A DNA stretch of 64,000 nucleotides, taken from positions 8,741,001 to 8,805,000 of the forward strand of contig NC_092570.1 of NCBI RefSeq assembly GCF_037975245.1, in the 5' to 3' direction. This stretch comes from Apostichopus japonicus. Its lineage: Eukaryota; Echinodermata; Holothuroidea; Aspidochirotida; Stichopodidae. The notes beneath the pieces are model-generated. The model was not told the DNA's origin. It did not search any database and saw only the letters and a list, made by a program, of their open reading frames with translations. This document shows, in pieces, positions 13,272 through 64,000 of the stretch. The translations under genes were made by a program, and so were the position numbers. Each line of letters begins with the position of its first letter. The stretch's first letter is position 1.

Positions 13272-13451
13272 CCATGCTACTTTATATTTCCGGGCGGATT
13301 TAAATCACATGGTTTATGAGGAAAACACTGCCTCCAAGAAATGGAATAGAATTTGATGAAATTTGAAAGAAATGCTGCATAAGCCTCACATAATTATATT
13401 TCTGTATGTCATTATTATCATCCTCCATGTTTTTTTTCCTGATGGCAGAAC

Positions 13452-13955
13452 ATGTCGATAGAACCGTTGAAGTGTGGCATTAAAATTGAGCCGCCTGCTC
13501 TTGTGCTAACATATCTAGATGGAAAGACTGGAAAGAAGAGACAAAGAACGATGCCTTTGAGAAACTTTACTTCAAGAGTTGGAGTCACAAGAGTAGCAGA
13601 AGAGCTCAAGTCCAACCCAAGACACAGAAAGTATCTAGAGTCAGTTCCGACATTACAGATGGAGAAACTGTTTCGTATCATTCAAGAGAGGCTGAGAGGT
13701 TTGAGTCTTAACGATTCTTTGGATAAAGTCAAGGAAGAGTTAAAAGTGGATCCAGATGAAGATTTGAACAAGTTAAACGATGCCGAATTGAAAACAAAGA
13801 AACATATTATGGATGAGAGCTTTGAGAAAAATCGAAAGAAACAAGAAGATCCTGATTTTGTCTATGATGTCGAGGTAGACTTTGAGAATGTAGGTGGACC
13901 AGCAATTGAATCTAGTGGATGGGACTCGGGAAGTGATTCAGATTTAGATTTTTAG
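13452..13955 (+). CDS. CEP19: Centrosomal protein 19
   Basis: The 167-residue product aligns along its whole length with vertebrate CEP19 (about 163-167 residues). Shared landmarks are KCGI near the start, the RQRTMPLRNF segment, NPRH(K/R) near residue 56, DPDEDLNKL near residue 110, and DPDFVYDVEVDF near the C terminus, ending in an acidic tail. CEP19 sits at the mother centriole and ciliary base, where it recruits RABL2 for entry of intraflagellar transport trains. The coding part is a single exon; a TGGCAG splice acceptor just before AACATG suggests a separate 5' UTR exon. The ATG at 13452 has A at -3. It lies 2.3 kb upstream of MED4 on the same strand and seems complete. Confidence 0.95.
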   Translation: MSIEPLKCGIKIEPPALVLTYLDGKTGKKRQRTMPLRNFTSRVGVTRVAEELKSNPRHRKYLESVPTLQMEKLFRIIQERLRGLSLNDSLDKVKEELKVDPDEDLNKLNDAELKTKKHIMDESFEKNRKKQEDPDFVYDVEVDFENVGGPAIESSGWDSGSDSDLDF

Positions 13956-16274: not shown

Positions 16275-19200
16275 ATGGCTTCTAACGAAAAATTTGCATC
16301 AAAGTCAAAGCTGCTGTCACTTGTAGAAGAAGCTGAGAAACTCACAAGGTATGTGGAAAGAATTACAGTGGCAAAGTGATTTAAATAAATGGCACAATGA
16401 GCCTACATCATTTCGTTTCGCACAACACGTACTAACGTTATGTTTGCATATGAAATAAATCGACAAAACTAACGTTCAAACAGCAAACGTATCACTCAGC
16501 TTAGGCCCTGTATAACTAATAAAGTCTTTTTTTTAAACAAATTTAAGATTCTTTCTGAGTCGTCTACACACAGCTTGATGACAGTAACAGTATCTGCACC
16601 AATTCAAATGGCACTTTGAATGAATACTGAATTTGGGCTTAATAAATCCTGTTGGCTGTTGAACATTAAAGGTTGATTATGTATGACATTTATTACGGAT
16701 ATGTTTGTTTATGTCTAATGAATGTCAAGTTCTAGCTATTCATCTGATTTTCGGGCGGTGCTCTACCTTCTTTACATGATCAAAAGGCGTTGCTCAGCTT
16801 CTGATGTTTATTTACCTGTTTGTTGGATGAACTATTGAAGCATTGGTGCCTATATTACTAGGCATAGGAGTACTGAATAAGCATGTTAGTGTACATACAT
16901 CACTGAATAGAGCAAGTCAATGTACAATACATCACTGAATAGAACATATCAGTTTACATATGCATAGAGTGTAGGTATATGTAAATGTCTATGACTAAAA
17001 TGTTTGTACTGTTACCAATTCATCAGGCTTGCTGTGCTTCCAATGGAATTATCAATAACCATGCTGCCTTTGGTTGATGTTACCAAAACTGTGATTCATA
17101 ATTTTTTGAAAGAGCAATGCGCTCAGTGATTCTTCATCTTGTATTAGTCATTTTCTCCATCATCTCATCCATCATCTCCATCCAATTACCATATCCTTCC
17201 ATACTTACCAAAGATCACAGATGATGCTAATGCCTTTGATGTTTCAATTGTTTTATTAGGGACCTTCTGGATACAACATCCACAGCAAGACAGAAGATAG
17301 TTCATCCTGATGACCCTCAGGTATTTTATCTGTGTTTGTCTCTGCTATTTAATATGATAAATTAAGTTATATTTCTAAAAATAGGTGCTTTGACTATTTC
17401 ATGCAATAGTTGTATTTGTATGTATGTATGTATTTTAGATCCTCCTGCAAGCAGGAACTCGCGAAGAAGCCATCATTGGCTTATCAAAGCCGCAAGCTGA
17501 CCAAAGTCAGTCTCTTAGATTCATATTTAATGTCCATGATTATGAATTGTCAACAACTCTGTAACTGGACAACATACATTAATCTTGGAGTTACTCGAAC
17601 TCAAACAGATCTTATGATTGAAAAGCACCGGCGTTAACCACTGAGCTAACACTCCTAAAGTTAGTTAGTTTATTGTATACAGCCTCAAGTTTATTCTCTC
17701 AGAATATCAGTGTAAATTCATGATGCATTCTTTCCAAAGAATGACTTTCATCTGATCATAAAAAAAAAATCATTTTTCAGATAATGGAAATGCTGCTCAA
17801 GAAAAATGAGGAACTTGAGGCTACCTTGAAGGAGACCGAAGTTCACCGTGAGAAGAAGAGGGAAATTGAGAGTTTGCAAGAAGAAGTTGATAAGAGGGAT
17901 GAAGACATTAAACAACTTCAAAAACAACTTAAAGAGGCAGAACATGTGCTGGTGAGGCTCTCTGTTTCATGATACCCACAGTTGTACTGTATATTATAGC
18001 GTATAGTTGAGGACCTTACACTACTTTTTTGAAATATGTTGTATGCTACGTAATGGATTTCACTCCGTGGGATCGTCAAGGCATCTTTAAAATGCTCTCC
18101 ATTTTCCATTCAATTGAGTCTTTTTCAAGCAACAAGCTGATGCACCAGTAAATTCACCATGGGTATAGACCCACCATTTTACATGATCATATTTGCACTA
18201 TTTCACTGAATTGTTCTTCACAAAGATCACTATCCTTTATCTTACAGTCGACTGCTCTCTATCAAGCCAAAGAGAAGCTGAAGGCCATAGATCGAGCAAA
18301 CAAAGGAGCATTATCTGTGGAACAGCTCATCAAATATGCGCATAGAATCAGTGCAACAAATTCTGTGGCCGCACCTCAGACATGGACTGCAGGTTGGTAG
18401 TCTAAGAACCTTGCAGAAATCAGTAGATTGTATGAAGTTATTTGCATAACTGCATCCTAACAGGTTCACTTATTAAATTAAATTTGCAGTAGCTACTATG
18501 ATTGCTATGAAACTTTATTCTTGTCAAAATGGTCTTTCCATTTAGTGAGGGTAATAAGTATATCTCTGAGAGCAAAGATAATACCAATGGTTTGATTCCC
18601 CAAAATAAATGTGTCTTGTTTTGTGATACAGTATATTGACAAAGCATTGTTTGAATCTCCAGATATTAAAAAGAAAACAGAAACCTTATACCTGATACTT
18701 AACACACTTTGTTTCTATGTATACATCTCATGACTGCACGTAGTGGATTTCATCGTTTTTGGTTCCTTGCTTTAGCAAAAGGAACCTATGTAGTCAGGTT
18801 GGCGTGTGTGTGTGTGTATGTGTGTGTGTGTGCGTCTGTGACACTTGCTTGGGTACGCTCTATCTCAATAAGGGAATGTTGGATTGAGGCCAAACTTGGA
18901 CTATAGATCCGCCATATGGAGAAGGTGTGCCCTATTGTTTTTGGTGCCCACAAAGGTCACCAAAGGTCAGTTATGGTTCAAAAACGGAAAATATTAAATC
19001 TGCAATAACTCCCAGTGCCAATTTGCGACAAGGTTGATATTTTGGGAAAAGTTGTGAACTGGTTAGAGGAACATTTTCAAATTCAATGGTCATGTGATCC
19101 GAGGTCACCAAAGGTCAATTAATGATAAAAAACTAGTATTTTTGCGCTAATTTGAGAACGAAATGTCCGTTAGGGTTGGGAGTTGCTTCAATGTTATCCA

Positions 19201-27700: not shown

Positions 27701-30700
27701 AGCAGAGGGAACTGTCGTATTGGTCATATTGGTCCTCTCTAGTTCCGCAAAAGTTGACAAGCTGCAGTCTCTGAAATCACTGAGAGTTCCTTTGAGGAAT
27801 CTCTGATGGACAATTCTGGCAATAGTACCTGCACAATCACTAATTTACACATAGTGTGACTCATTGGAACTAACTTACACTTTTTACCACTCATAACTAA
27901 CACATTTGAGCAACAAAAGGTTCCCATCATTTGTTTGTTTGGCAACTTTACACAGGTCTGGGCATCAACCAATGAGAAAACATCATTGAGGTATTTTTAA
28001 TCACCTGTACTAGACTGAGTTTAAGCTTTGAGCATCAGTAAAATTGTATCCAAGTCTACGAAATGGAATAAACTGGACTTATACCTGTGATTCTTCTCGT
28101 AATTACTGAAGACAAGATCTTTTTAAACATTTGTTAACAACAAGCACACGGATATTTTACAGTGCTATAAAAATCTTTGGATATATGTAAACAGGATAGA
28201 TCACACATTAGAACCCAGAGCGCTATATTCGGCACTGTTAGGACTGATATCACAGAGCCCTCTGCAGAAACCCTGAAGATTCCCATCTGAGGATATAAAT
28301 TATAAATATACTCTTTACTGACCTTTGGTAATGGATGTGGACCATGAAGAACCTGATCAAACATTGAATAGCAGATTTGAGTTTGTAAAGATTGAGCTGC
28401 AAACATCTTCTTTGATTCACAGAGTTTGCTGATCATCTCTTCTGGTAAAGTCTGAAATGAGAAAAGTAATTAATTTTTTTAATGTAAGATTTAAAGGTCC
28501 CAACCCGCATGCCGCCCTCTGAAAAAAGTTAACTTTCCGTTGCTTGCAAGTGAAAGTTTTTTCTTGTCGCTACAAAATACAGAGAGAAATAAAACGTGAT
28601 ACCTTGTTATCTTTAGCTGGACCTGAGATGTCCATCGCTGCTATGTACACTGTGTTGTGGGTATTGACCGTAGCTGCATGTATTGACTGTACACTAGTGT
28701 CTATTTACCAACAGTAGCAAGCTGTGTGTGTATTTTCTGGGATCGATGGTGGTGTCCAACACTTCTGTTACACCTCATTCGAAACTAGGTCAGATTACCG
28801 GCATGAGACGTATCTTTGTGCGCGAGTCTTCACTCCCTTTAATATAGTCTGCCAGACACAAGGCTATTACTAGACTACAATGAGAGCAGACACGACGAGC
28901 ACAGGGTAATCTAAAGAATGTTATCAATGACAGAAGGAAAGTTGATGTGGTCATGAGGGACTTACCTCTTGACTTTGATAATGTCTAGCAAACCGACTTA
29001 AAACCCTGTAATCGTTGGCGAAATATTCCATTAAAATGGATGGCACCTCGGCAAAATCTGTTGCACATCTAGTACCGGTCACATGTTGGTATCTTGTACG
29101 GGCCAACATGGCTGCCGAGGGGAAAGAGAGAGAAGAAGCTAAATGGCCTGTCATATCACACAGATATCAAAGACTTGTGACATCGGTTACATTATACATG
29201 CTCACACATCTACCAAGGAATGCTGTTAACAGAACGTGTATTAGATCCTTTGGCAGGATTGAGATATACATATTCAGTGTAAAATGTTTATTCATCAGTA
29301 TAAATTACAACGAGATGTCACCATGGTGACAAACAAAAGCAATGGTATATGCTATATGAGCATCCTCTGCCCTGTAAACAAAAAGAAACTTCTATTAATC
29401 TTCATAGCTTGCTCTTGTCAAATAAAAATCATACAAATACAGGACTGTGAAAAATTAGGTACTACACAATAATTACAAACATTGACCACCGTGAATTCAT
29501 GACTTACAGTGCATGGCATGGCCGCACTCATGGAATAAGTTCTCCATCATCTGTTAAGGAAACAAAAGTGTAAACAACATGAATATTGATAAGGAAATTG
29601 GAAGCAGGAAAGAAGGCGTACTGAAGGGTATATTTATCCCTCATATGTGTGCCATAAACTCAGAAAAATATAGATGGCAAATAAATGGTGTGGAAGTACA
29701 TTTGTCTACTGCTTTCCACTTCTCTCTAATCTGCTTCCTCCTAAAGTCATATCTAAAATAAACTTTATCTGTTGTACATTCATTTGAATAACTGTATAAG
29801 AAAATGCATAATACTAAGAGTCAATCATTCTCATGTACATCCATGTTACAATCAAAACTACCCATTCTGGGAAACAATAATTGTAATAATACTAAATAAA
29901 TATTTCTACATTCCTTAAACATAAGTTTCTAACCAGGAAACATTCTATCATGTTGTTTTTAATATTAACTTTGACTATCTATTGAGTACAACACATTGAG
30001 AATACATTGAAAATAATTTCTGATGATATTTTGATGCCCTATTGGACAATGAATGCTTAGAGCATTAGTTAATGAAGAGTTTAATGTGACTTACCCCATG
30101 GGTTAGGAGGGTGGGACAACTAGATGTTGGTGGGCTGCAGAAATTTAAAAAAAAGGAATGGTTGTTAAGATCTGGGCATTCTTAATGCTATACAGTAAAA
30201 TAGTCAGCTACATTATTTTTTTCAACATGACATAATTTCAAAGAACAGAAACAGGCCCATGTACCATATTGTTCAAGGCAAAAGGAAAACAAGAAGAAGC
30301 CCAGATATATTATGCTGCTTTGACTCATCAGATCCTGATACATAAGAGCTAACATATGTCTCCAACATTGGAAATTAGCAGTATTTATATGAATTTTTTT
30401 AGTGCAAAACACATCTAAACAATATGTAAACACAATGTATGCAAATGTAAATATACAGGCACAACAAATGCAATTATGCCATTTATTCTGACAGGCCACA
30501 CATGTGAGTCAATCAGTCTACTTTTTTCATAAATTTATCTAAGAGAAAACCTAACATGCATTTGACTAGATTTGTAACATTAGACTTGGGGGAAGTGGAA
30601 GGGAGGGGGGCCAGGTTTGTTTCTGTATGAGGCACAGAAAGTACACAAAGCAATATGAATAGTCACCAGGGTGATACATAGAATGAAAATTTGGAAGAGG

Positions 30701-49167: not shown

Positions 49168-52100
49168 CTATTTCTTTTTCTTTTCTGATTTTAAGCCATC
49201 ATGCAGTGCAGTGACATCCATCAAAAAGTTTTCACCGACTAATTCACCATTTTCGTCGAACCAACAGCCGACCGACTTTGTAAAGGATGACTCCTGTCTT
49301 AAATTATTCTGATTATCTTCAAATAAGAGTGAGAGTGTGTACATGTCGTCAAATCTAAAAGAAAAAGAAAGAGAGTTTGTTTATGAATGCTATCTTTCTG
49401 TGAAAGACTCGGATGAATGATGCTTAAAAGTTTGTTAACTTTCTGTTACCTAATTAGTAATGAGACCATTTCTTAATTTTATCGTAACATAGTGGAGTGT
49501 AAGCTCAGTGGTTAATGCCTGTGCCTTCCAAGCATAAGGTCCCCAGTTTGAGTCACTCCAAGATTAATGTATGTTGTCCAGTTACAGAGTTGTTGACAAT
49601 TGACAATTCATAATCATGGATGTTAAATATGAATGTAAGAGACTGACTTCGGTCAGCTTGCGACTTTGATAAGCCAATGAGGCTTCTTCCCGAGTTCCTG
49701 CTTGCAGGAGGATCTAAAATACATACATACATACATACAAATATTCTACATTACCGTAGATTCATGCATACACATAGTCATTCTGTAAGTAGTCATTCCA
49801 TTACTAAACCAATCAATTAAATAAGTAGTAAAATATCCTCTCTTCAAGGATGTTACATAATCTTCAACTATTTTTTTTTAAAGTGTTTTGTTTTACCATT
49901 TTGCTTTTACCTCCAATCTATTATCTGGCAATGCCACTGGGTCAGTTTGTTGTACACTATCCTAACATTATACATGTCATTGGTGTGTTTCAAGTAACAC
50001 AAATATTTTATTCTGACTACACTGTTTAATCTACTGGTATCATAGATTTAACTTGCTTAATGTTATGATGAGAGCAGATTTAAGATATAGATTATTAGAT
50101 TGCACTATTTAGAATGATTCATAGTTAGTTGTATACTGCAGTAATACTTGAATCATAGAAGTACTTGCAACATATTAAACATGGAAAGGTTGAACAATTA
50201 CTACATACATTTTGATGATAGCTCAAACAACCATTAAGTCTACTATTTACCTTTTCATACAAGAGTCAATAGTCCAGACTTTATCCGGGTCTACACCTGC
50301 TTGATCCTTCTGATGTACAATCAGAAAGTGGTTTCTCTCGACGTAGGTCGTATAAAGGGTGAGTACTCCCATTAATACAAAATAAGTAAGAAAACATTAA
50401 GGAAAAGTCATTCAGAGTGTAGGGTAAGAATTATAGCAGGAAAAAAAAACATAGTAAATATAGATGACAAGTCTTAGCAGGTACATAGCCATGAACTGAT
50501 AGATTAACAGGTAAGAAACCATGACTTGATAACAGTAACAGCTGAACTCGATAACAAATAAAGGGAAATACCCACAAACTGTATGTAGTACACATGACTT
50601 GATACAAATGTTTGGTTGTTAGTGTCCAAGTATTTGCTATTGCAAAAATGTGTTTGGGGAAGCTTCTGAAATTTACCTTCCCCTGGAGGTAGTTGATTTT
50701 AATCTACTACCTGGTAACTCAATGATGTTTATTATATCTTGCACATTGAATGTGGTTGTAAAACAATTCAAAGAGATAGCACGATGAATTATATTATAAT
50801 CTTTTAAAACTTGACATCAACTTTTAATAGCAAAGGATATGACACAACGCACACTAAAAGAACGAGACGTGATTCTGGAAATGGCCTGAGGAAGTCGTAG
50901 ACCAGAGCTGTAGCAGCAAACAGGCAAGCTACAGTACATATCACAAGACGCTGGTCCATCAATGTGTGATTTTCATCATACTTAAAGTGCTTGGTCATTA
51001 TCTGTGTAAGTAGAAAAGAGAACAGAAAGAAAGGAAAAATCATCTGAATAAAACAAATAACTGATCTATTTTGTATATAAGATACCACATCATTTCTAGA
51101 TGTCACACAGTGGAAAAAACCATAAAGTCTAGCTAGACCACTGAATGCACACCATTTCTTCACTTGTTGCCACAAATTCTGGAAAAAGGCTTCATTGTCC
51201 CAGAGGAAAACTTTAAATGGTTTCTTTTATTTTTAATTAATACCTTGCTCTCTTGTCCAATTGTGCAAGTTTATGATTTACAACACTTGTTTTTATACTG
51301 ACATTTATAGTCCAGATTAGGGCCAATGACATCATAAATGTCTTAGGGATGTAATCTTGTAAAACATGAAAAAAGAACATCCACTCACATTGCCACAATT
51401 TACTTTATTATTTGATATAAAAGAACATCCTGTCTTGCAGACAATAGGATCATAGAATCGGTTGTGCAAGTTAAAAAAACAACCTGGTCAGGACAATAGA
51501 TGCTTTGTTAATTTTGAGTCGTGCAAACCAAAGTGGCCTTACCATTCTAACAGCATCATCAAGAGCGTTCTTTACAGTAGTAGCATTCCACTTATCTACC
51601 TTGACTGGTTTCCCATCCTCTGACCACTAAGGAACAAAAACAAATAAAATTATGTTAATCACCATATTAATAGCATATCATGATATTTCTATGTGGTCCA
51701 TTTATGTTAGTCACCCAAGCTTTAACAGATGGAGACCATGGATGACAATATGACAGTGATGTTAGAAGACAACAATATGTTCCACACAATCTGTTGCTCT
51801 CAATTACCAAAAGGGTTTTATTGTTAGACCAAAAGCTGTTACTGGACTGACTGAGTAGGGGTCAGTGATATTGAATCTGCATATGTTTTGAACATGCTTA
51901 GTTTCCTTATTATACTTTTCTTTGAAATGAGATACACTTGGAAAGGTGTTTGCTAAAGGACTATCTTAGTATCAGTATGAAAGTTAAATGTTTAATATTG
52001 AAGATCTCTTCTTCTCCTTATGGAGTTATGGTGTTGGGGAGGTGGGTTTTATAATTTACTGCACAAAATTTACCGTAGCCCTAGATTGTTTAAAGTTATC

Positions 52101-53505: not shown

Positions 53506-56500
53506 ATGGCTGCATCCACGAAAAAGAGAACGGCGGAAGAAGTAACTACCAGTATTACGGTCGTGGTAAATTGAGAATTTCTCTATTTGATATAACCTTA
53601 ACATAAATTGTAATGATCCTGAAAACTTGTCTTGGATTCTAAGTGAATTTCATGACTAAACTTTGAAGTCACATTTAATGGTCGCGGTACGATCGTTGAA
53701 GAAACCTCAGAAACTACAGAGATCAGTTTTGCGAGAAAATAATGAAACAGTGTCAAACTATGTCGCACTTACTAGCCTTTAGTTCGTGTGCTGCGTAGAG
53801 GGATGCGTCATATTATTCCTCCCGGAGCTGGACGCATAAAGGTTATCTGACTGTCATTGCACGGTTTTCAGAAGGTGTCCAAGACAAAATTTCACGTCAA
53901 ACAAAAGATGAACTATCCATAACGTTTTCAGATAGTTGACAGTTTATGCATTCCACTAACAAACCGATACTTCAATCTACACACTACTGTTATAGTTATT
54001 TAGTTAAAAATCACAATCATGGCGATGTACTGTTTTGCCAAAAGTTGGCCCATGCACAGAGAACAAGCAAATTAAAAATTCAGACAATATTTAGTCCCCT
54101 GTTTGTCAACCCATGGTCAGTTCAAAATATTAATCAGGGTAGGCTACATGCGCAAGCAAATGCATTGGCTGGACCACATTTCATTGCAAAAAGAAAAAAT
54201 ATAGGCTCCACAGTGAAGGCTTATAGCTAGACTCGGAACAGTCACAGGGATTGGGATGTTAATAAAGAACTAATAACCCAAGGGTATTTGTTAAATATGT
54301 CCTTCAAACAACTTGCTGTGTTATGCAAACTTTGTTTGAGAAAGATGGCAAAAGCCAGACTTTAAACATTGCCATGGGTAATGGTGCTAGGCTTACACTT
54401 ACAGTAGTGATTGCAGAAAAGACGTACAGTAGACCAGCATACATGTACAGCCTAATTAGGCACAGTTACAAATGGAAAGGTCAATACACCTGCCCGTGCA
54501 AGCGTCTGATTAATGTTATGGATAAGCAGAGCTAATGCTTTTCTCTGCATTTTTCATTCCCTAGAACCCTGTAAATGGGCCAATATTTTGTGATACAAGT
54601 ACACATTGTCTTGATTTTGAGATTATGAACTACACAATAGTATGATAAAAAGATTGTTCAGGCTGTGTAGCTTGAATGCATTTTCATGAGGCTTCTGGTA
54701 TTATTGTTGATTCAAATGCTATCACAGGATATTTTATATATTTTTGTATGAAATTTTGCTTGGCATTCATTGCAGGATGAGGCTAAACCTCCACCTATAA
54801 AGATAAGGATTTCATCAAAACCTTCATCTGCACCAAGTTACTCAGATCTTGGAACTGTGAGTAACTCTCAGGATGCCTTGAAGCTGTTATTGGAACTTGA
54901 GAGTAAGCCTCCCTCAAAAGAAACTCAAGCAGGTAATTAAAATGTGAGAGAAAGACAGAAGAAGAGCATAAACCAAGTATGACATGTTAGATATCTAATT
55001 AGATACACTACTGACGTGTAACAGTTTATCTAGTTGATATATAAAACTTACATCTCTTCTCACTTCAAAGACTTCTGCTTCATTCAATTTACTTGCCATT
55101 CAATCAATCAACTGTAATAATCATTTCTCTCATGGTACGATCATACTGACATTACTGTAACAATTTTCCTTCTCTTATCCTGTCTTTATGTCATAAAACC
55201 ACTTTGCAATGAACTGAAATAATTGTTTTGGTTAGTGTTAGGTGATTGTAGTACACTAATTTGCATATACTCAAGGAAACACTGATCCAGTATCACATTG
55301 CAAACTGCTATACAAAATGGTTCAATTGCTACACCAGTGCAAAGATGTATATTATTGATTTAACACAGGAAGTACAGTATTATACAGTACAGACACATTC
55401 CAGAGCCTTATTGCCTGAGTACTCTCTTATTCCCTGTGTACTATCTCATTCCCTGAGTACTATCTCATTCCCTGAGTACTATCTTTTTCCCTGAGTACTA
55501 TCTTATTCCCTGAGTACTATCTATCTCATTTCTTTTAACTCCAGAGAACGTGATTCCAGCTCTGTTGGAGTATTACAGTAAAGAATCAAATTCTGCTGTC
55601 AGGGCAAAGATTGTGATGATGCTCGCAGATTTCTCTCGGACACCAGGATATGATGCACTGCCACTAGCTGAAGATGTATTAAGGTTGCTAGCACATGAAA
55701 GTAAGTTCTCTTGAACTATTTAGCATAAATCAAAAGCATGTTGAAATATATCTCATTAGAATAAGACATATCATTTAGTAAGTTTATTAGAACTATAAAT
55801 ACCCTGCATGTGCAGGTTTGAATTGTGTCATACCAGCATGGATTTTGTGCGATGAAACTCTATTTGCTATAGTTATTGATTGTGTTGGTCAGATATATTA
55901 ACTTTGACCACAATGTAAGGGTTTAGGGTAAAGGGTTTATATTTAAATGGTTAACATACAAAACTCAGCAATGTTTTTATTGAGATTCGTTCTTCTGTTA
56001 CTTCATCGTGAAGTGAAGAACCTAATATTTATTAACAAAGTTAATACACAGTAAGGAAAATATCAAGTCTTGCTGACTTACCATTCAACATCCATTTAAT
56101 GCCACCTTATCATTGTATGTATTTCATTATTTGAAGTGCATCTTTTATCCCACTTTTGGCCTTTGTCAATTCTGTGGCTAAATGATGAAGATTTGTTTTT
56201 TTCCCCTTCACTTGCAGAGTCTCACAAGGTAATGTCTGAATTAGTGAAACTGCTGAATGTGATCGGCAAAGCTCTAGCAGGATGTACAGATCTACATCAG
56301 CAACTAGTGAAAGCAGCCAAAGAGGTTTGATTCTATTTATAGTTATTTAACATTAATGGGTATACCCGGTTATACCCATTAGAGGCCCCAGAGGCCCTGA
56401 AATATAAAAACTAGAAGTAGAATAAAATTATATAATCATTATAAAAATAATATAGAATACAAACGTAAACATTAAGACGAAAATCAAAATTCAAAAAAAT

Positions 56501-59500
56501 AATAAAAACTTGATAATGGCATATAATACAACATGGAACAATCAATGGAATAAGAAATTAATCATAAGAGATATGTATCTAATGGCAAGTTAAATTCAAA
56601 TAGGTATGGGGATGTATGAAGAACTAGCTATTACTATAGAGGAGGTATAAGAAATTAAGAATGTATTTAATAATTGCTATTACAATAGAGTAGGTATGAG
56701 ACTGTATTCAGTAATAGTTATCACAATAGAGGAGGTATGATACTGTATTTAGTAATCGCTGTTAAAATAGAGGATATATGTCCATTTAAAGAGTACTTGC
56801 TGTTACAATACCTAGAGGCTGTATGAGAATGAATACAATAGTAGGCCAGTAGCCATTGCAATTGAGTAGTAACAAGAATTTGTAAAGCATTAGCCATGTC
56901 ATAAAGTTCTTTGCTGTCTGTTCCATTTGGGAATGTTTTATTCTAATCACAAGAACAGTTCCCAGTGGAGTCCATGACCATATGATATCCAAATGAAACG
57001 ATCTGGTCCTTGTCTTTCATGATCTGTATGAGCTCAACTATACTAATCTAACATGTATCGAACACATTCAGTTGAATATTTCATTAGACTGTTGGAATTT
57101 CTTCATTAGTTGCTCTATAATTAATGAAAATTGTCTGGGTTATGGTTATTGCTGTTGAGATAGGAAAAGGTATTTGGTTGTAATCTACCAAAGGGATTCA
57201 ATTTATTGTCGGTTGTTCTTATTAAAAAAGGGATTTTTAAAATTGACTTGTTTCTTCATTTCAAAAGAATCTTGACGATTCGGGTCACCTTGTTAGATGC
57301 GAGTGTCTTTGTCTCATTGGTTCTTTGGCAACATCAGAGATGAATATTCATGAAGAGACTCAAGAGGCTTCAACATCATTGGTTCTTAGTGTCCAGGATC
57401 TACTTAGTATGTATACTACAGACCAAGACCCAAGAGTCAGGACTGCTGCATTTCAAGCCATGGTAAGTGGAACTATGTTTTCCTGAGTATATTGAAGGTC
57501 ACTCAATCATGTGTGTGAAATTATTAAATTAATTATGATATGTTAATACCACGTACATGTAACTAGAAGAAAGATTATAACCAACACAAAAGTGTATTGT
57601 TTCATGTTTAAATGTGACTTTCTGCTGTTTTTTGCTTTTGTAAAGATTTTTGCAACTGTAAGGCCTGAAGACAGATAGCTCTTGCCATTGGCTTACTATG
57701 TGAGACTTAATTGTTAGAGAAATAACCTTTACAAACCTTTGTTACTATGAAACAAAAGTGCCGACATAAATGTTTTCATTCATTAATGTTTTTTATACTT
57801 TTATGTTGTTTAAGTACAAATTTTAACTAACAAGTGTCTAAAATTAGTGTCACCATTGCATTAAAATGACTAACTTTTTCTTTTTAGTTATTACTTCATC
57901 AGAGGGGTCAGAAGCTCTCCCTTTCGTTATATAAGTCAGCCTGTGCTGCCCTAAAGGATGATTATGAAGGAGTACGCATTGCTGCTCTTAAACTCATTTG
58001 GACCCTGGCTCACCTCTATCCCGAAGAAATGATCGAATTACCCAGATCCGGGGAAGAGAAGGAATCCATCCGCCTCGTTGATGATGGGTTTGCTCAGATT
58101 TGTGATATGGTATGTACCATTGGATTGATAGTGGTGAAAAATGTACTCATGTTTCTTGATGATGGGATTGCTCAGGTTTCTTGATGATGGGATTGTTCAG
58201 GTTTGTGATATGGTATCTAACATTGTAGTGATAGGGCAGAAGAATGTATTCATGTTTTTGGTCTCGGTTTGCTCAGATTCTTGATATGGTATATACCATT
58301 GAAGTGATAGGGGACAAGAATGTACTCATGTTTTTGGTGATCAGTTTGCTGAGATTCTTGATATGGTATGTACCATTGGAGTGATAGGGGACAAGAATGT
58401 AATCATGTTTTTGGTGATCAATTTGCTCAGATTCTTGATATGGTATATACCATTGAAGTGATAGGGGACAAGAATGTACATGTGTTTTTGGTGATCAGTT
58501 TGCTGAGATTCTTGATATGGTATGTACCATGGGAGTGTAAGGGGTGAAGAATGTACTCATGTATTTGGTGATCAGTTTGTTCAGATTCTTGATATGGTAT
58601 GTACCATTGGCGTGGTAGGGGTGAATAATGTTGTAGTGTATGCAAAAGGTATGAAGTTGTGCAGAAATGAAATGAGTGTTAATAGAAAGATTGATCTGAA
58701 TGGAAAGATCTGTGGGACATTTACATTTCAACTTTTGGTACAATTCCTAAAAGGTGTGATATTTTTTCCTATTTTTTCTTCTTCAAATTTCAGGTCAATG
58801 ATTTGTCAGTAAATGTCCGAGCTAAGGCTGCAGGGCTGCTTGGATCATTACATTCAGTCAGTGTAAGATTCTTGGAACAAACTCTGGATAAAAAACTTAT
58901 GTCACAGCTCAGGGTAGGTAGCACAACTACTCTTGCTGACTGTTTGCTAATGGTTTCTAGACAATCTGTGATCATCAGGAATATAAGTCTGATGTTGGCA
59001 CATGCTGTACATTTGTTTAAAGCCACAGTGTATTAACTGTGACAGAGCAGCTAGTTTAGTTCTCAGCAGTTGTTAAAAGGGATATTCCTGTCATAGCCAA
59101 TGGTGATACTTATCTTAAATAGTAAAATATTCTGCATTGTTAGTTGCAAAATCCCATATCAGTATTTAGTAGCTACCTTGAGATATATGTTTGATTGGAT
59201 GTAACCTAATTTGACTGGCTAGACCCTCCTGTATTCCATGAAGTAGAGAATACGGTTGATCTGTGATGTTTTCATAGTAGATGATCTTCATTAGCTCTAT
59301 ACTCCTGTTATTATCATGTTAATTTATCCTTGAAAAGTAATACATTTGGAATGCTTACTCTGTCAATGTTCCCTGTATTAAGAATTTCATCTAAATGCAA
59401 CTTTTGTAGAAATTATGTAGGTATATGATATTTCCTCTCTGGGTAAATAATTTAAATTTGAATAAGAAATACATAAATATTTTCAGCTCAATTGACATGA

Positions 59501-62500
59501 TGACATCATTCATTCCATTTGCAGTTACCAGATGCATTTCACCAAATCTCACCAAATTTGAAGGAAAAAAATACTCTCTTTGTGATTAAAATTTAGTGAA
59601 AATGTGGTTTTAACCTTACAGGTTCAGAAAATTCCAGCAATTTTCGAAGTAATCAATTTTCATCACCAGAATATCCCTTTAATATCTAGTTGCTTCGAAC
59701 CAAGTGCAATTAGTAAAAAAAATTGTGATTTAGATGAGATGTACCAACTAGAGAAAATGGCATTAATACAAGAAATTAAAAAACACAAATGTGAAAGATT
59801 AATCAATCGGCTTCTGTTGTATTTATTTCAGAGAAAAACAACTGCTCACGAGAGACAGAAAGAGAAGTATGCCACAGGAGAATGGTCGTCGGGGCAGAAA
59901 TGGGGCGACGATGCCCCACGGGAAGACGTAGACCCGGAAACCATTAGCTGCATAAACCAGGGGGCTTGTGGGGCATTTGTACACGGATTGGAGGATGAAT
60001 TTTATGGTAAGCTGTGAGACCTAAGGTACTCTTAGAACATGGTAATTTCTATTGTCCAGAGAGGTAATACTGTAAATTAAAATTATTTTAGTAAGACATT
60101 GAGACATATTAGTGTGTAAGAGTGTTCCAATGGGGGAGGGGAAGGGGAGGAGGGAAGGTGGAAATGGGGAGGGGGTTTTAGTTGCTATTAGAAAAAGCTT
60201 GCAAAAGCACTTCATCAACATGTACTAGAACTGCGAAATGAAACTGGGGGGGGGGAGGGTGGGTGAGGGAAGGGAGAGGAAGGGGTGGTTCTGTTTGTTT
60301 TGTTTTTTTGGTTCTCTTTTCTAATTGTAAAGTTCTGTATTTTTTCAGGGAGTGTCACTACCCGACAAGCGCTATAGGGATTTTTAGTACAAGTTTTGTT
60401 TCTTATCTCCTTCTATGTCATATGTCATACTTATGTTATGATAGAACAAAAATAAATAAATGAAATGAAAATTAATTAGTTACATTATACATAGATGAAG
60501 TGAGAGGAGTAAGATGCCATGCTCATTTCGTTTTTCTTTTCATCTCAGAGGTCAGGACAGCAGCGGTGGATTCTCTCTGTGAGCTTGCTACCCAGTCTCC
60601 TTCCTTCGCGGTTCTCTCGCTGGACTTCCTGGTCGATATGTTCAACGACGAGATCGAAGCAGTGAGACTCAACGCCATCAATAGTCTGCGTAGGATCAGT
60701 CCTCACATCGTACTGAGAGAGGACCAGTTGGAAATAGTGCTGAGTGTTTTAGATGTAAGCACCCTTGAAACTGGGTAGTATTCATTTACAACATCGAGGT
60801 GTAGTTGCTTGAAGACTGTCACTTCCAAGTTGCTGTCAGTTCATGCCGAAAATGCAACTTTAACGGAAGGAATGGAGTCTTCATAGTCTTTAAGATCTTT
60901 ATAATGTCCCACTTTTTTGGGGGCAATTATTTTGGCTGTTTTGGAGTTCTGTTATTGAATTGTATAAGTTTATTTATGTCTTTCCAGCAAATTAAGTTAA
61001 CCTTTTTTTGTACTATTACAAAGTTGATGCAACAAAAGACAGTCTATGTTGTTGACTGTGGCTATAAACCTTACCATAAACACTTGTCATTCTGGTTACG
61101 CTGATCGACAAGGTCTGATTTAACTTTTGTATTTTTTCGTCAGGACTTTTCCAAGGAAATCCGAGAGGGTCTCCATGAAGCCCTGTGTACCATCCATCTC
61201 TCGACCAAGTCATGCCTGAATCGAGCTTTGCAGTTTCTGTTGAGGAATTTGAATAAATATCCACAGGATAGATTATCGATATGGAAGTAAGACGTTAATC
61301 TTCAATACTTATATTTCTACTTCTAACAGTACAGAAATGTTATACATGTGGTGGAACATTATGAAGAAATTTCTTCGAGAATGGCCGTGGAACATAGTTA
61401 AGAAGGTTCACATATGACTGTATGTTAGTAAACAGAGATGAGGAGGGAAACGAGGAAAGGGCTTAGCTTTAATTATGGGCTTGTATCGGTCCATGTAGCA
61501 TTGACTGGCCTGATGAGGTGTGGGAGGGGAGTTAGAATGGGTGCAGCCCTGGGTCCCAAAATGAGTTGAGGTGCGGGGGGGGGGGGGGTGGGATAGGTAA
61601 AAATTGAATGACAAATATTGTATTCTTATTTCCATAATATACTGAAGGACAGATGAAGAGTACTGAAGGCCCCAGTGTAGAATTGTCCTCTGGTCATGAT
61701 CTGACTCTCAAAGCCCCTGACCACCGAATACTTGGTTAAACTTTTATGATGTTGTTCAGTTCAGTTAATATCTGTGTGAAATATTCCAATTGTTGTGTAA
61801 TAAAGAACTTTCTAAATGTTACCCCTGGCAGTAAGAATTATATATGTGTTGGACCATTACAGTCACTCCTCTGCACTAGAAATTCTATGCACCAGAAATC
61901 ATGAATGCATTTGTAAACTGTTGGTAAAATCTTCCAAGTGAATTGAGTTTTGATGGATATATTCTTTGTGTCTTTCTATCATTTTCAGCTGTTTGAAGCA
62001 CCTTGGATCTAGTCACCCTAACCTGACACATAGCTTGGTACCAGAACTCCTAGGGACACATCCATTCTTTGATACTCCTGAGCCTGATATGGATGACCCT
62101 GCTTGTATCTTTTATGGAACTCAACAACTTGAATTTGATATTATAGTGTGGGAATTCATTGCATGTAGTGAAATAGTACTGTGTATAGGCCCTTCACATT
62201 CCTACTGAGTATTAGCATCATACTGAGTATGGCATCATACTGAGTATTAGCAAGGGGTCTAAAATTGCCACAATTGACCCAATTTTTGCACCACATGTAC
62301 TTCCATTCATGCTCTTCAACATGCAAGCCCCCCAAAAAACAGATCCCAATTGAAAACAGGTAAAAGTAGATGTTCTCTTGCTGCTTTTTGGCATTTTTCC
62401 TTAAGGAGAACAACCGGGCGGATGGATATAGACCCTAATAGGAATATGCCACCAATACTGAGTATGGTCATAATATGGGTATAAATTGAGTATGACATCA

Positions 62501-63736
62501 TACTGAACACAGACATAAAAGGAAATATGAGCATAATAGTGAGTATGGATTTGTACATCAAGGTCATACTGAGTGTAGACATGACTCAGTATAGGCATAA
62601 TAGTGAGTATGAGAATAATAATGGGCTTGTTTGTAGGTATGCAGGTAATAATGAATACAGACATTAAGGGAGTATACACAACTCTTAGAAGAGTAAAGAC
62701 ATGATACTGGGTGCAAACATAATACTGACTCTAAGCATAATAATAATGATACTTATCTGCATAATACAGTAGTATGGAGGTAAATTGCATAATAATATTG
62801 TGTTGGAAGATAATACTGAATATGGACATCATTCTAAGTACGGACATGTTACTGAGAATCGGACGTGACAGTCCTAATGGACAGAATACTTACTTGAAAT
62901 GAAAAATGGCTGCTCATGATGACAAGAATGTTTTTGGTTTGTTGATATATGTATATATATATTGGATTAGCTCATTTGTGCACATCACTGAAATTTCAGT
63001 TATTAATGAATGGTAGATGGAAGGTTGTTTTGTCGATGAGTTTCTGTTCTCAACAAAACATAACATAGGACTGGTTTACAGTGAAAGGAGTATAATGTTT
63101 CAGTACAGAGTAGATATATGAGGATATTTGATCATAATCTGAAGCAAAATGTTTGTTTATTGTTTATTTCAAGTATCACATCTAACCTTTGACCTGGTTG
63201 CTATGGAGTTTCCTTAACCAACTATCAGACATTGCTGTCATGATCTTGATCTTCAATTCAACTGTGAAGAGCCCAACGATGGTGTCTTTGTTTCCAGATT
63301 ACGCCCTCCGTCACTATTCTTATCTCAGAGACAGTATCCCTGATCTTGTACCTGCTGTTACTGTAAGCAATCACCTCTTTACATCAATTATCATAGATTC
63401 AGCACATCAGTTGCTTCATTTAATCTGGTATATCAGAGACAAGACATTGAACAAACTAAAACACTCATGGTTTATTTATTGAACTTAGTTATTGTTGGAC
63501 TGATAAATCTTTAAATTATTCTAGATCTTTTACATTTTTGTCTGATTACTAGTACGACTGTTGTTTCATTTTCTGTTGCAGCACATATCACAGGCTCACT
63601 CACCAGCGAGAGGTCTGTCTGATGTCGGTGCTGACCAAGACTTGGACACTCTCCTCCAATCCATCCTCTCAAAGGTTAAGAACCTGGAACAGATGGAACC
63701 CAGATCTGCTGATGACCTGAGGCAACTAACCATATG
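53506..63736 (+). CDS. INTS4: Integrator complex subunit 4 (N-terminal two thirds)
   Basis: Thirteen exons: 53506-53565, 54776-54932, 55545-55700, 56218-56324, 57268-57462, 57888-58109, 58794-58913, 59832-60006, 60549-60754, 61144-61286, 61989-62104, 63229-63362, 63582-63736; all phases agree, giving about 648 codons of an expected 960, the rest lying past the right edge. INTS4 is a HEAT-repeat scaffold that joins INTS9 and INTS11 to form the cleavage module of Integrator, which makes snRNA 3' ends and ends paused transcription. Landmarks include [49 protein letters not shown], and [14 protein letters not shown]. Intron 11 (62105-63228) is U12-type; with it, exon 12 reads [11 protein letters not shown] as in human. 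Introns 6 and 13 hold tandem arrays of the donor site. Confidence 0.97.
55415..55535 (+). repeat. 21-base minisatellite in INTS4 intron 2
   Basis: About five copies of a unit reading ATTCCCTGAGTACTATCTC, with small differences, end just before the acceptor of exon 3 (55545). The pyrimidine-rich units may now serve as its polypyrimidine tract. Confidence 0.8.
58080..58620 (+). repeat. 77-base tandem array of the exon 6 donor, INTS4 intron 6
   Basis: The unit begins with the end of exon 6 and its donor (GATATG|GTATGT). Donor-like GT sites recur at 58110 (the real one), 58213, 58289, 58366, 58443, 58520 and 58597; the last five gaps are 76, 77, 77, 77, 77. Each unit also keeps GCTCAG upstream, so it carries a decoy 12-base micro-exon between an AG and a GT. 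Confidence 0.9.
59470..59650. repeat. Dispersed repeat, copy 2
   Basis: Resembles 11665-11820. It lies in INTS4 intron 7, with shared cagatgcattt and atgtggtttt segments. Family and ends are unknown. Confidence 0.45.
60125..60290 (+). repeat. G-rich tracts in INTS4 intron 8
   Basis: Two blocks of GGGGA/GGGAGG-type runs at about 60130-60176 and 60245-60285. They could form G-quadruplexes in the pre-mRNA. A similar G run lies near 61575-61592 in intron 10. Confidence 0.55.
62105..63228 (+). other. U12-type GT-AG intron of INTS4
   Basis: The donor is GTATCTTTT, one base from the U12 consensus GTATCCTTT. The branch region is TTTCCTTAAC at 63209-63218, a perfect match, with the AG (63227-63228) 11 bases after the branch adenosine. 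Exon phases 1/1 restore the conserved PAYIAV reading. Confidence 0.92.
62205..62880 (+). repeat. Degenerate CATACTGAGTATGG repeats in the U12 intron
   Basis: Short units built on atactgagtatg recur irregularly more than ten times, with spacers of 10-40 bases, through the first half of INTS4 intron 11. The motif is nearly its own inverse (CATACT / AGTATG), so strands could fold into small hairpins. Confidence 0.7.
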
Positions 63737-64000
63737 GTAAGTTGAGTGTTAGTAGAGGTGTGACAGCTAATGTAACACTATGCAGAAGCAAGGAATACAA
63801 CACATATGGTAGGTTGAGTATTAGTAGAGGTGTGACAGCTAATGTAACAGGAATGGTACACTATGCATACACAGGGAATACTACACATATGGTAGGTTTA
63901 GTGTTAGTAGAGGTGTGACAGCTAATGTAACAGGAATGGTACACTATGCATACACAGGGAATACTACACATATTGTAGGTTGAGTATTAGTAGAGGTGTG
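63725..64000 (+). repeat. 83-base tandem array of the exon 13 donor, INTS4 intron 13
   Basis: Units begin CATATGGTAGGT, copying the end of exon 13 and its donor (CATATG|GTAAGT). GT sites lie at 63737 (real), 63809, 63892 and 63975; the first unit lacks about 11 bases that later ones have. The array runs off the right edge. Confidence 0.88.

Follow-up and report, generated by a model that had tools for sequence, protein, structure and literature searches.

Signals of a U12-type intron in the Integrator subunit gene INTS4 of a sea cucumber

Introduction

Integrator is established to cleave the precursors of U11, U12 and U4atac, as an earlier note on the locus studied here had stated. The note proposed that an intron of the minor, U12-dependent class interrupts the gene for Integrator subunit 4 (INTS4) in a 64-kb stretch of sea cucumber DNA (below, the window, meaning this whole stretch), and that INTS4 might in this way help to make RNAs needed for its own splicing. 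The locus raises the question of whether this intron is indeed U12-type and, if it is, whether the resulting dependence amounts to a working feedback loop.

Integrator genes with minor introns have been described elsewhere. The human genes INTS4, INTS7, INTS8 and INTS10 have one minor intron each; RNU4ATAC-mutant cells contain 3'-extended snRNAs and show altered Integrator assembly, and the same paper advances the hypothesis that altered Integrator might cause the 3'-extended snRNAs (PMC9881141, 2022). That INTS4 can carry a minor intron, and that Integrator and the minor spliceosome are linked, is thus already published and not new.

Results and Discussion

Identity of the Gene and Placement of the Intron

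The gene was identified with a hand-assembled query of 490 residues from INTS4 exons 5–13. This query matched human INTS4 (PDB 7cun_D) with an E value of 3.6e-171 (query residues 1–489, chain residues 157–640, the HEAT-repeat region) and fly INTS4 (7sn8_D) with an E value of 1e-130, and the four distinct sequences listed among its matches were every one named Integrator complex subunit 4. Homology to the human and fly proteins thus bears out the earlier naming of the gene as an animal INTS4. Its 3' part extends beyond the window, inside which there are 12 complete introns (table 1).

Table 1. Features of the INTS4 locus and of neighbouring genes, with positions in the 64-kb window
Feature	Position	Strand	Basis or remark
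INTS4, first 13 coding exons	53506..63736	+	Joined exons translate without a stop; about 648 codons
INTS4 exon 11, ends GAC CCT GCT T	61989..62104	+	Upstream of the predicted U12-type intron
INTS4 intron 11, predicted U12-type, GT-AG, 1124 nt, phase 1	62105..63228	+	Signals and frame
Predicted U12-type 5' splice site GTATCTTTT, T at -1	62105..62113	+	8/9 to GTATCCTTT
Predicted U12-type branch sequence TTTCCTTAAC	63209..63218	+	Exact to TTCCTTRAC
3' splice site AG (ACTATCAG/ACATTG)	63227..63228	+	Acceptor
INTS4 exon 12, starts AC ATT GCT GTC; Tyr completed, then IAVMILIFN	63229..63362	+	Frame and homology
CEP19	13443-13955	+	Pfam
Mediator subunit 4	17745-17972	+	Pfam
Signal peptidase subunit SPC25	49168-51226	-	Pfam; upstream of INTS4, opposite strand

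Intron 11 falls within the Tyr codon of DPAY, a motif that is common to human and fly INTS4. Joining at 62104/63229 restores the frame, and the product aligns without gaps across the junction to human PDMDDPAYIAVLVLIFN (7cun_D). Over 94 residues around the junction, identity is 64/94 to human and 46/94 to fly INTS4, and among the 21 residues centred on it 17 are identical to human and 13 to fly. Because the frame is restored, the alignment is gap-free and local identity to human and fly is high, the predicted junction is firm and, fixed by frame and alignment, is in our view not in doubt. The boundaries originally proposed, 62105–63228, are exact, with the donor GT at 62105 and the acceptor AG ending at 63228.

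U12-Type Signals of Intron 11

The consensus words of U12-type introns are RTATCCTTT for the donor and TTCCTTRAC for the branch site, and the branch word is expected about 10–15 nt from the acceptor. Both words are of the same kind as those of the U12-type introns given as examples in PMC7367187 (its Table 1). The donor of intron 11, CTT/GTATCTTTT (CTT/GTATCTTTTA in its longer form), shares eight of nine positions with GTATCCTTT, the mismatch being a T at position +6 where the consensus has C. The branch word, TTCCTTAAC, is matched at nine of nine positions, and its last A (63217) precedes the final base of the intron by 11 nt, just where a perfect branch site had been reported. The phase (1) and the T at -1 are likewise in line with statistical traits of U12-type introns, which show an excess of T at -1 and a bias against phase 0 (PMC7367187).

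The other 11 complete INTS4 introns score 3–6 of 9 as U12 donors, and their best branch words reach 5–7 of 9, leaving intron 11 as the sole one with both U12-type signals among the 12 in the window. A further mark of U12-type introns is the absence of a polypyrimidine tract at the 3' end; over the last 20 nt, intron 11 has the lowest pyrimidine share of the 12 (0.60; others 0.65–0.90), a value that decides neither way. Donor, branch word, spacing, T at -1, phase 1 and frame all support the class to which 62105–63228 had been assigned, and on this sequence evidence we regard the assignment as very likely. Our preferred reading, which we hold with a probability of about 95%, is that an animal's gene for the Integrator subunit INTS4 here contains a GT-AG intron of the minor (U12-type) class, and an ordinary one.

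Chance Resemblance

Intron 11 might instead belong to the U2 type and look like a U12-type intron by chance, a reading that draws on the abundance of short U12-like words in 64 kb. The motif RTATCYTT was found 16 times against 14.7 expected, that is, at chance level, and if genes are ignored the window holds 20 donor–acceptor pairs, 50–10,000 nt apart, that score at least 8/9 at both ends, and in three of these the branch word is exact; signals alone are therefore insufficient to call a U12-type intron. Among these 20 pairs, intron 11 is the one at a frame-proven junction, and the shortest of the other 19 (32435–32236, minus strand) was checked for coding flanks, which were not evident. Two more of these 19 pairs, both ending at 29542, were rejected, that end falling within a peptidase M3 exon that starts at 29550.

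The branch sequence TTTCCTTAAC occurs twice in 64 kb against 0.23 expected, a count reached in 5 of 100 shuffles. The second copy directly abuts the acceptor AG of an intron on the minus strand (30133–29506) that has a U2 donor, GTAAGTCAC, and that lies in a peptidase M3 gene, which we take to be MIPEP. The gene was recognized from a Pfam match (PF01432) on a nearby reading frame. With its zero spacing this copy is probably a polypyrimidine-like acceptor, and a perfect word on the acceptor of a U2-donor intron is what chance resemblance would produce; as a natural control, it tells us that the branch word by itself is no proof. Over both strands of the whole window, 10 of 7,494 GT sites score at least 8/9 as U12 donors, and among 7,334 AG sites 3 are preceded, at 9–16 nt, by an exact branch word. 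The third of these AG sites, at 13717 on the minus strand, lies opposite the CEP19 reading frame and was discarded. Taken singly, neither the donor word nor the branch word is remarkable in a stretch of 64 kb.

What argues against chance is the finding of both signals, at the proper spacing, in one frame-proven intron. For a single given intron, 60 order-1 Markov sequences put the joint chance at 1.5e-7, and the T-rich composition of the 3' ends of the other 11 introns puts it at 3.3e-7 (4.0e-6 over 12 introns), figures that are valid only given an intron fixed by its reading frame. Moreover, the donor GTATCT agrees with GTAAGT at just four of six positions, against five or six in 10 of the 11 other INTS4 introns and three in intron 4 (GTTTGA).

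Pairing energies, calculated with pieces of human snRNAs by a routine that ignores the bulged branch A and the fixed register, did not separate intron 11 for U11 and U12, an outcome that fits a chance resemblance but that, given this routine, we count neither for nor against the U12-type class. For U12, the value of -9.1 is exceeded in strength by introns 3 (-9.3) and 8 (-10.1) and equalled by 2,826 of 20,000 random tails; for U11, 9,899 of 20,000 random donors are as good as intron 11 (-3.1). By the same calculation, the U6atac pairing of intron 11 (-4.5) is the strongest of the 12, the next being -4.2. Rfam at the gathering threshold gave no matches in the 64-kb window, U11, U12, U4atac and U6atac genes included. 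Weighing these points, we consider a chance resemblance highly improbable and retain the U12-type reading.

A Pyrimidine-Rich AG in Exon 12

The intron could also be part of a twintron or of an alternative splice, with the downstream acceptor at 63297 (TTTGTTTCCAG) used in some mRNAs and 69 nt dropped in frame. Rich in pyrimidines and ending in AG, this site would preserve the frame while removing 23 residues of exon 12, yet it lies inside conserved INTS4 coding sequence, the codons of which account for the pyrimidines. Neither GTRAGD nor GTATGT, the U2-like donor patterns scanned for, occurs in 61981–62400, and the in-frame status carries little weight, a third of such sites being in frame by chance. 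The AG at 63297 is probably just coding sequence, and we give its use as an acceptor hardly any credence; the single U12-type intron with its acceptor at 63228 remains our reading.

INTS4 Minor Introns in Other Animals

The human minor intron of INTS4 (PMC9881141) shares gene and class with intron 11 of the sea cucumber, the two being compared by gene and not by codon. Gene and class are also shared with mouse Ints4, two U12 introns of which are retained when Zrsr1/2 are mutated (PMC7312986), whereas of the 12 complete introns covered here a single one is U12-type, the 3' part of the gene lying outside the window. In mouse limb under minor-spliceosome inhibition, Ints4 is again among the mis-spliced minor-intron genes (PMC13192996). 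As to whether the intron is U2-type in relatives, a finding that would have spoken against the earlier note, the evidence favours the note for mammals because mammalian INTS4 holds minor introns in human and mouse, an agreement at the level of the gene and not of the codon. Viral contigs (IMG/VR) were likewise searched for INTS4 relatives, and of five pattern stretches none was confirmed by tblastn.

Loss of U12-type introns is common among invertebrates: of 267 genes that carry such an intron in vertebrates and have an invertebrate orthologue, 194 were missing it there (PMC2831892). It has also been argued that much of minor-intron evolution reflects neutral retention (PMC10639083). A single kept U12-type intron in a slowly evolving animal genome is unremarkable. 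The present case adds another animal, with clean signals, to the record of INTS4 minor introns, and offers a marker for tracing the intron across animals.

From the Intron to a Predicted Dependence on Minor Splicing

Known biology predicts that the donor GTATCTTTT is recognised first by U11 and then by U6atac, and that U12 pairs with TTTCCTTAAC so that one branch A is left unpaired; the minor spliceosome would join GCT-T to AC-ATT, giving the conserved DPAYIAV. Translation through intron 11 yields 34 extra residues past residue 552 and then a stop. With such a stop, an RNA becomes a candidate substrate of nonsense-mediated decay. INTS4 contacts INTS9 and INTS11 through its C-terminal part. Retention of intron 11 would likely leave the RNA open to decay and the protein without its C-terminal part. 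Because retention would bring a stop, likely decay and C-terminal loss, INTS4 output would rely on the minor spliceosome, while U11, U12 and U4atac are themselves matured by Integrator. This mutual dependence is real in outline, and is one of several such dependences.

Does the Dependence Close into a Loop?

A working loop would run from reduced minor splicing to reduced INTS4, to reduced processing of U11, U12 and U4atac, and from there to a further reduction of minor splicing. The anatomy fits such a loop, with a predicted U12-type intron within INTS4 itself. Minor-intron retention in Integrator genes coincides with 3'-extended snRNAs (PMC9881141), U11 and U12 are misprocessed in INTS8-mutant P19 cells (PMC5466333), and mouse Ints4 is mis-spliced in the two minor-splicing-deficient settings described above (PMC7312986, PMC13192996). 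However, in U4atac-mutant human cells INTS4 barely responds: the delta-PSI values given in PMC9881141 are 23 for INTS7, 20 for INTS10, 6 for INTS8 and 2 for INTS4, and INTS7 and INTS10 proteins are decreased, whereas INTS4 and INTS8 proteins do not change significantly. INTS7 and INTS10 are likewise Integrator genes whose minor introns place them under minor-spliceosome control and, unlike INTS4, they combine strong retention with protein loss, so that the human-cell evidence favours these two over INTS4 as the affected Integrator genes (PMC9881141).

Further points also tell against the loop. Knock-down of planarian ints3 or ints9 raises the unprocessed forms of the tested snRNAs with the exception of U11 and U12 (PMC6312358), neither U6 nor U6atac is made by Integrator (PMC7968993), and total U snRNA levels are unchanged in INTS8-patient cells, as recounted by PMC9881141. 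We consider a working loop through INTS4 unlikely. In searches of the open-licence PubMed Central literature the term "feedback" was not found applied to INTS4, and it has no occurrence in PMC9881141. The feedback idea of the earlier note stands as regards the general link between Integrator and minor splicing, which is published (PMC9881141); the step through INTS4, which the note had itself labelled as inference, is a fair one to infer, possible and probably weak.

Feedback of minor-splicing activity on its own factors or partners is known from the USSE elements in the U11-48K and U11/U12-65K genes (PMC3584512) and, likewise, from the autoregulated minor intron of Srsf10 (PMC7244321). In these genes regulatory elements have been described, whereas the case for INTS4 is built on the intron. 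An extension of the same idea would see in the minor introns of several Integrator genes, INTS4 among them, an old self-reinforcing switch for which the INTS4 intron was kept here, a proposal that we regard as very unlikely. Were it true, minor splicing falling under some level would cause failure of the Integrator cleavage module, immature U11, U12 and U4atac, and collapse of minor splicing. The wider idea of an interdependence of Integrator and the minor spliceosome matters for minor-spliceosome disease, and for human cells it has already been published.

Repeats at INTS4 Splice Donors

Two repeats in or beside INTS4, both noted by eye on the plus strand, include a splice donor. Within intron 6, at 58110–58650, there are several near-copies of a unit that contains the end of exon 6 and its donor (TTGATATGGTATGTACCATTGG), such that the splice donor is copied repeatedly within the intron. 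Near-copies of another unit (ATATGGTAGGTTGAGTATTAGTAGAGGTGTGACAGC) occupy 63737–64000, where the start corresponds to the donor of exon 13; like the repeat in intron 6, this one is tied to a splice donor, its unit starting at one.
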